64,000 nt of DNA, taken from the NCBI GenBank assembly GCA_913047695.1, contig CAJWUI010000002.1, forward strand, positions 1 through 64,000, given 5' to 3'. Positions within the stretch are counted from its first letter, which is position 1, and each line of letters begins with the position of its first letter. Shown in pieces: positions 45,808 through 46,964 of this stretch. The translations under genes and the position numbers were made by a program. The stretch is from an uncultured Bacteroidota bacterium. GTDB lineage: Bacteria; Bacteroidota; Bacteroidia; Flavobacteriales; Flavobacteriaceae. Under the pieces are notes generated by a model. It ran no database searches. It was not told where the DNA came from and saw only the letters and a list, made by a program, of their open reading frames with translations.

Positions 45808-46758
45808 CTAGTTTTTGATTAAACCTAGTTCCTTCAATCTTTGGTTTAAAAATTCGCCTGCTAGAATGTCATCATATTTCTTTAAATTTTTCTTATTGTA
45901 AGTTTGTGGCAAGCAGTTCAATGGCATTTCTGGTATTGGGTGCATAAAAAAGGGGACAGAATATCGAGAACTTCCCCAGAATTCCTTAGCAGGATTTACA
46001 ACTCGATGCAAAGTAGAGGGGAAAAAATTATTTGTTAATCTTGAGAGCATGTCGCCAATATTAATTATCAATTCATCTTTTTCCGCAACAGCCTCTATCC
46101 AGTGATTTTTTCGATTTAGAACTTCTAAACCTCCCCCTTGCGCACCCATTAATAGAGTAATCAAGTTGATATCACTGTGTGCTGCAGCCCGTTCAGCTTC
46201 TTTTGGTTGTTCTTTAATTGGCGGATAATGTATTGCCCTTAAGATTGAATTTCCACCATTAACGAATTTGTCAAAATAAAACTCGTCTATATTTAAAAAA
46301 AGAGCTAAAGCTTGAAGTATTAGTTTCGCAGTTTTTTCTAATTCCAAAAAGGCTAAGTTGCCAACTTGATTAAAGTTTTCTAATTCTTTAACTTTTATAT
46401 TTTCTGCGTAATTTTTTTTGAGATACTTTTTTGTGTTTAAATCCTGACCGAAATGCCAAAATTCCTTCAAATCACCAACCGATCTCCCAGCTGCACTCTC
46501 TTTTCCAAATCCAGTGTACCCTCTTTGACCCCCTCCATCTTTAATTTCGTATGATGATTTGATTTCATCAGATAGATTAAAAAAATTACGAATTTCCTTA
46601 TAAAGATTTTCTTGAAGCGAGCTGCTTAGAAAGTGACCCTTTAAGACAAGAAAACCAATTTCTTGAAATGCAATGCCAATTTTTTTGACAAATGATTTTT
46701 TCGTTTTTGAATTTTTAGAAGTGAAATCTTCTAAGTTTGCTTTAGGAATGTTATTCAT
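45808..46758 (-). CDS. Isopenicillin N synthase-family 2OG-Fe(II) oxygenase
   Basis: IGIAFQEIGFLVLKGH; AHSDINLITLLMGAQGGGLEVL; ELIINIGDMLSRLTNNFFPSTLHRVVNP; SRYSVPFFMHP. Confidence 0.9.
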   Translation of the reverse strand: MNNIPKANLEDFTSKNSKTKKSFVKKIGIAFQEIGFLVLKGHFLSSSLQENLYKEIRNFFNLSDEIKSSYEIKDGGGQRGYTGFGKESAAGRSVGDLKEFWHFGQDLNTKKYLKKNYAENIKVKELENFNQVGNLAFLELEKTAKLILQALALFLNIDEFYFDKFVNGGNSILRAIHYPPIKEQPKEAERAAAHSDINLITLLMGAQGGGLEVLNRKNHWIEAVAEKDELIINIGDMLSRLTNNFFPSTLHRVVNPAKEFWGSSRYSVPFFMHPIPEMPLNCLPQTYNKKNLKKYDDILAGEFLNQRLKELGLIKN

Positions 46759-46761
46759 TTC

Positions 46762-46793
46762 AAAAAAAAAGCGGATCCATCGATCCGCTTTTG
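46762..46793 (-). terminator. Intrinsic terminator immediately upstream of the 2OG oxygenase start codon
   Basis: Minus strand AAGCGGATC-GATG-GATCCGCTT followed by TTTTTTTG; T-run ends at 46762, oxygenase ATG at 46758. Confidence 0.9.
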
Positions 46794-46809
46794 TAATAGA
46801 TAAGGAAAG

Positions 46810-46872
46810 CTAAAACAGGCCGCGATTGGGTACCTGCTGTCTCGAATTCCTTAAATGATTATAATAAGACAT
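46810..46872 (-). CDS. 20-aa small ORF with an extended Shine-Dalgarno sequence (leader peptide candidate)
   Basis: GAAAGGAGGTG-TCT-ATG; MSYYNHLRNSRQQVPNRGLF*; own promoter and terminator. Not in the ORF track. Confidence 0.7.
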   Translation of the reverse strand: MSYYNHLRNSRQQVPNRGLF

Positions 46873-46932
46873 AGACACCTCCTTTCAAATTTGGTTAAAC
46901 ATTGCTGTTGTCACAGCATAAACTACTCACAT

Positions 46933-46964
46933 CAAATATAATTACCACTTTAATGGTTTTCAAA
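46933..46964 (-). promoter_or_regulatory. Bacteroidota consensus promoter for the small ORF unit
   Basis: Minus strand TTTG (46964-46961), 20 nt, TATATTTG (46940-46933), directly after the antiporter stop codon. Confidence 0.75.

Follow-up and report, generated by a model that had tools for sequence, protein, structure and literature searches.

In the Bacteroidia the anti-Shine–Dalgarno (anti-SD) sequence of the ribosome is buried by bS21, bS18 and bS6 (PMC9976891). In Flavobacterium johnsoniae, ribosomes whose anti-SD is free, because they lack bS21, read strong Shine–Dalgarno (SD) sequences such as that of rpsU, and genome scans of the Flavobacteriales have typically found rpsU to be the sole gene with an exceptionally strong SD (PMC9976891). 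Two other described systems are relevant here, namely type I toxin mRNAs such as aapA3, which are small mRNAs with an SD masked by a distant anti-SD and with alternative helices involving the ORF (PMC6733600), and the sRNA Rfp18 of Flavobacterium psychrophilum, an autonomous, structured small transcript with several stem-loops (PMC9723704). The unit of about 165 nt described here lies on the minus strand, at 46964–46762, of a 64,000-nt stretch of DNA from an uncultured member of the Flavobacteriaceae (the window). Like rpsU of this bacterial order, which otherwise avoids SDs, it has an exceptionally strong SD that is directed at the same 16S tail, and for both the presumed readers are ribosomes whose anti-SD is free. 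Unlike rpsU, it encodes a peptide of about 20 aa, its pairing is stronger and extends to as many as 14 nt (up to 13 bp has been reported for rpsU), its SD is set within a structured RNA that has a 16S-tail mimic in cis, and it is retained where the rpsU SD has been lost. We describe the unit as an extended-SD gene that also has masking in cis, and what it shares with rpsU is the extended SD and not the gene; its product in the window's genome is a 20-aa peptide and not bS21, and rpsU sits elsewhere in that genome. The small size, the masked SD and the alternative helices recall aapA3, masking of the SD by an intramolecular anti-SD being in this case a matter of prediction and conservation. However, the anti-SD of the unit is a copy of the 16S tail, and SDs are not normally used by its host. 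Rfp18, for its part, came to light among transcripts that lack coding potential (PMC9723704), a comparison made by description and not by sequence. When models of the unit were run against the large genus g156, presumed from its size to be Flavobacterium, and against other families, the weak matches were terminators only, with no full match in g156, and gave no support to homology with Rfp18.

When relatives were searched at the DNA level, 34 of 38 genomes of the same genus gave a strong match (E of 1e-17 or better) and another genus gave one weaker match; with a covariance model, run on a sample of 400 genomes, small-genome Flavobacteriaceae of at least eight more genera also proved to carry the unit. 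A degenerate pattern matched 78 stretches in named genomes of GTDB, most of them MAGs or single cells of marine origin, with MS024-2A and Candidatus Arcticimaribacter among the carriers; four copies forming a divergent group, with peptides beginning MSI, came from genomes labelled Cryomorphaceae, Crocinitomicaceae or Flavobacteriales. The comparative set assembled in this way holds 84 distinct copies (some counts below are on 83), across which the SD, the ORF and the stem-loops are kept, as the proposed check for conservation in relatives called for. A unit shared by 34 of 38 genomes of its genus and by several other genera is not a product of chance, and on these comparisons it is a conserved gene of a clade of small-genome marine flavobacteria. 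Order-wide and class-wide model searches recovered no copy outside this clade, the weak matches being terminators; those in G806 and G826 were dismissed as chance terminators that follow coding sequence and have no SD. Viral contigs and phage collections yielded no match to the unit. The initial annotation, which was made from the sequence alone, could name no known family for the peptide; in Rfam 15 nothing reached the gathering threshold and the best permissive matches fell far below it, so that no known RNA family matches the unit; our literature searches found no description of the element.

Direct reading of the strand placed every element listed by the initial annotation at the coordinates first given. 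The promoter (46933..46964) was proposed as TTTG (46964–46961), 20 nt and a −7 box, TATATTTG (46940–46933). Of this proposal the −7 box is upheld, TAnnTTTG being retained in 71 of 83 copies, whereas the −33 TTTG is not conserved among the copies. Stem-loop 1, GCUGU-GACA-ACAGC (GCTGTGACAACAGC as DNA; 46904..46917), has outer pairs that vary in a compensatory manner as GC, AU or UA around an invariant GACA loop, and in all 84 copies 23 or 24 nt separate this loop from the SD, a fixed spacing that suggests docking on the 30S platform. A candidate pseudoknot between the GACA loop and UGUC beside the SD was discarded, as it is lost in copies with GGUGCU. The extended SD, GAAAGGAGGTGT (46875..46886), is followed by an ORF of 20 codons, MSYYNHLRNSRQQVPNRGLF, with a TAG stop (46810..46872), and stem-loop 2 occupies the 3' half of the ORF (46815..46840) with partly covarying pairs of the ACAGC..GCTGT family. 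The unit ends in an intrinsic terminator (46762..46791; hairpin 46791–46768) with an invariant GAUG loop and a T-run; the hairpin is as first described, except that its stem, given as 9 bp, has 10 bp when A-U pairs are counted. Compensatory changes affect 7 of the 10 pairs and 99.8% of cells are paired, so that, with the −7 box, the claim that the unit is self-contained is borne out. The 5' end and the linkers of the RNA are poorly conserved.

The 16S 3' end was not found in the window's own assembly; it is GGAACACCTCCTTTCTA in G001, which belongs to the same genus, and in G379 and G360, from two further genera that carry the unit. Because the tail of these relatives ends in this way, the SD of the window is a contiguous Watson–Crick complement of 12 nt; its contiguity had been noted correctly and its length put at 11 nt. 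Among the 84 copies the Watson–Crick match to the tail is 14 nt in 48, 12–13 nt in 27 and 9–11 nt in 9, with 5–7 nt between AGGAGG and ATG. The predicted pairing energy has a median of −22.5 kcal/mol (range −17.0 to −22.7; −20.6 in the window), and all 84 copies, with the SD at a normal distance from the ORF, pair more strongly than −13 kcal/mol. An SD of this kind is near the limit of what base pairing can achieve. By comparison, the SD of rpsU in the same clade is weaker, with a median of −19.9 kcal/mol; in the window's genome rpsU has a degenerate SD, AAAAGTAGGT, at −6.7 kcal/mol (G000:C5:40491-40649, L166), and the unit is the only match there to AAAGGAGGTG...ATG. In genera g109 and g93, which differ in this from most of the clade, the rpsU SD is absent, at about −2 kcal/mol (L168, L174, L179, L180), and the unit keeps its own. 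The unit's SD in genus g109 (L057, L059) reads GAGAGGAGG in place of GAAAGGAGG; a search for the 16S tail of g109 found none. The rpsU gene of G379 (L172) also has GAGAGGAGG, though the G379 16S tail is canonical. Two assemblies each contain two rpsU genes (L165 and L181 in G013, L174 and L180 in G369), which may be paralogues or contamination.

The ORF is 60, 63 or 57 nt long in 83 of 84 copies, and the spacers after the stop codon vary over all lengths. Its frame contains a stop in none of 83 copies, while the other two frames contain stops in 79 and 83. Over the whole ORF the omega-like ratio is 0.45, falling to 0.30 from codon 10 to the end, as against 1.4 and 1.9 in the shifted frames, values to be read with the caveat that overlapping RNA structure shapes the same sites and that pairwise counts are phylogenetically non-independent. 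Codons 2–6, with an omega-like ratio of 4.4, show no conservation at the protein level; a proline near residue 15 is conserved with all four of its codons in use. On this comparative evidence the ORF is coding and specifies a peptide of about 20 aa under selection, with a low nonsynonymous rate in its C-terminal half, and the small ORF first reported stands confirmed. In one copy (L082) the stop codon has been lost (TAA to CAA), and the ORF runs through the cis-anti-SD to 25 codons.

The central feature of the unit was absent from the initial annotation. RNAalifold, given no hint of it, formed a pairing between GAAAGGA and UCCUUAUC, immediately 3' of the stop codon. The segment after the stop is similar to the 16S tail, of which L095 and L142 have an exact copy, CTCCTTTCTA. 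In the window the segment is UCCUUAUCUA (46797..46806), and sequence comparison and folding models together give good support to its being a 16S-tail mimic, or cis-anti-SD, able either to mask the SD (helix A) or to pair with the ORF at codons 7–9, TTAAGGAAT (46846..46854), which supply the 5' arm of helix B. In helix A 94.4% of cells are paired; the pairs are mostly invariant, with one changed on both sides, and the partners have changed together in genus g93, as have both flanks in L061 (ATCAT..AAGGAGG with CCTTCTT..ATGAT). Its energy is −13.5 kcal/mol with own partners and −12.3 with swapped ones, and given this small gap and the invariant pairs the conservation of helix A could partly reflect other constraints. 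In helix B, which extends stem-loop 2, 87.6% of cells are paired and both sides change, and swapping partners between groups weakens it from −12.4 to −9.5 kcal/mol. By these counts both helices are conserved, with clear covariation for helix B. The partition function at 10 °C puts state A at about 0.29 and state B at about 0.61; in the TMED179 group helix A is minor (0.07–0.09). It is thus well supported by alignment and modelling that the mimic can alternate between the SD, which would then be masked, and codons 7–9, in mutually exclusive helices of similar stability. In either state of the predicted ensemble the SD core stays largely paired (unpaired about 0.25), so helix B may not fully expose the SD.

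Our current working hypothesis, which we consider probable, is that the unit is an autonomous, single-copy mRNA of about 165 nt for a peptide of about 20 aa, with an extended SD that it can mask itself, and that it is read by ribosomes with a free anti-SD; of the three options offered by the initial annotation, a small protein made by such ribosomes appears to be the best. Translation would start by pairing of the extended SD with 9–14 nt of the 16S 3' tail. In the OFF state the mimic would lie on the SD and mask the initiation site, and in the ON state it would be moved off the SD and onto codons 7–9. Since ribosomes of the Bacteroidia bury the anti-SD under bS21, bS18 and bS6, productive initiation would fall mainly to those in which it is free, either immature or lacking bS21, and these would also have to outcompete the cis mimic, displacing it or starting with the mimic parked on codons 7–9. 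Stem-loop 1, fixed upstream, may serve 30S docking or sensing. A ribosome positioned at the stop codon should, given the size of its footprint, cover the mimic. A more tentative extension, which we regard as possible, is that this micro-mRNA is a second dedicated client of free-anti-SD ribosomes and that, with its own copy of the 16S tail as competitor, it is translated only if such ribosomes are numerous enough to displace the mimic and so acts as a sensor of ribosome composition; that the unit persists where the rpsU SD is lost leaves any coupling to the level of bS21 a presumption. That the peptide acts on, or reports, the ribosome population with a free anti-SD is a guess.

The surroundings of the unit bear on other explanations. 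Its usual upstream neighbour is a gene for an NhaP-type antiporter; where that gene has been lost, riboflavin synthase can immediately precede the unit. In 49 of 84 copies, the window included, a 2OG-Fe(II) oxygenase gene begins shortly after the terminator. In the window (46758–46770) the oxygenase ATG is 3 nt past the T-run, and in L015 it is immediately past; at such a distance the gene must be leaderless, have its promoter inside the element or depend on read-through. This arrangement is what would be expected if the ORF were the leader peptide of an attenuator controlling the oxygenase, yet more than 30 copies lack the oxygenase downstream or have another gene in its place, several groups have a convergent gene on that side, the MSI group combines such a gene with a divergent one upstream, and no antiterminator pairing was seen. 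Synteny contradicts oxygenase attenuation as a general explanation, and we find this reading scarcely credible. The more general proposal of a regulated leader peptide is likewise contradicted by neighbours that differ or are convergent in many genomes, so that the first interpretation survives as regards the unit, the extended SD, the ORF and the lack of a known family, and not as regards the leader peptide. With neighbours that come and go the unit is better described as an autonomous small mRNA than as an attenuator, and with flanking genes that are variable, divergent or convergent the RNA needs a promoter and a terminator of its own, both of which it has.

The small, presumably stable transcript with its invariant GACA and GAUG loops and its own terminator would also suit a dual-function or purely regulatory sRNA that pairs with mRNAs in trans, the ORF being secondary, and Rfp18 demonstrates that flavobacteria use such sRNAs. 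Against this, selection has acted on the frame, the stop and the C-terminal residues of the ORF, the poorly conserved 5' end and linkers offer no obvious unstructured seed, and model searches of the order and class find only look-alike terminators outside the clade; we judge a trans-acting sRNA unlikely. An RNA decoy that titrates free-anti-SD ribosomes, in which the peptide sequence would be irrelevant, is favoured by an SD stronger than that of rpsU and by the tolerance of amino-acid change in codons 2–6. This option of the initial annotation is weakened, since the peptide itself is under selection, with purifying selection on its C-terminal half, and an element that hides its own SD is not what a decoy would be expected to be; we think it distinctly improbable. 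More doubtful still is a type I toxin mRNA, in which sequestration of the SD would restrain peptide synthesis and the block would be lifted by processing of the RNA or loss of an antisense RNA. The long-range masking of the SD and the alternative fold with the ORF follow the logic of aapA3 (PMC6733600), but the peptides are mostly hydrophilic (mean GRAVY −0.52) and not hydrophobic and membrane-spanning, 83 of 83 copies lack an antisense TAnnTTTG (the one promoter motif looked for), and most of the clade keeps the unit at a single chromosomal site, with no sign of mobility or multiple copies. It is the mostly hydrophilic peptide and the absence of a visible antisense promoter that lead us not to class the unit with type I toxins.

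As an mRNA read by free-anti-SD ribosomes, the reading we prefer, the unit would offer a naturally occurring case in which to test for a regulon of specialised bacterial ribosomes, as well as an example of an mRNA in which a 16S-tail mimic is a possible translational switch. It gives a whole clade a second exceptionally strong SD, stronger than that of rpsU and kept where the latter has decayed.

One copy is decaying (L063; G351, 1501–1651): stem-loop 1, the SD (AAAGGAAG), the mimic and the terminator are altered and the 21-codon ORF is still open. In G130, of the same genus, the copy is intact.
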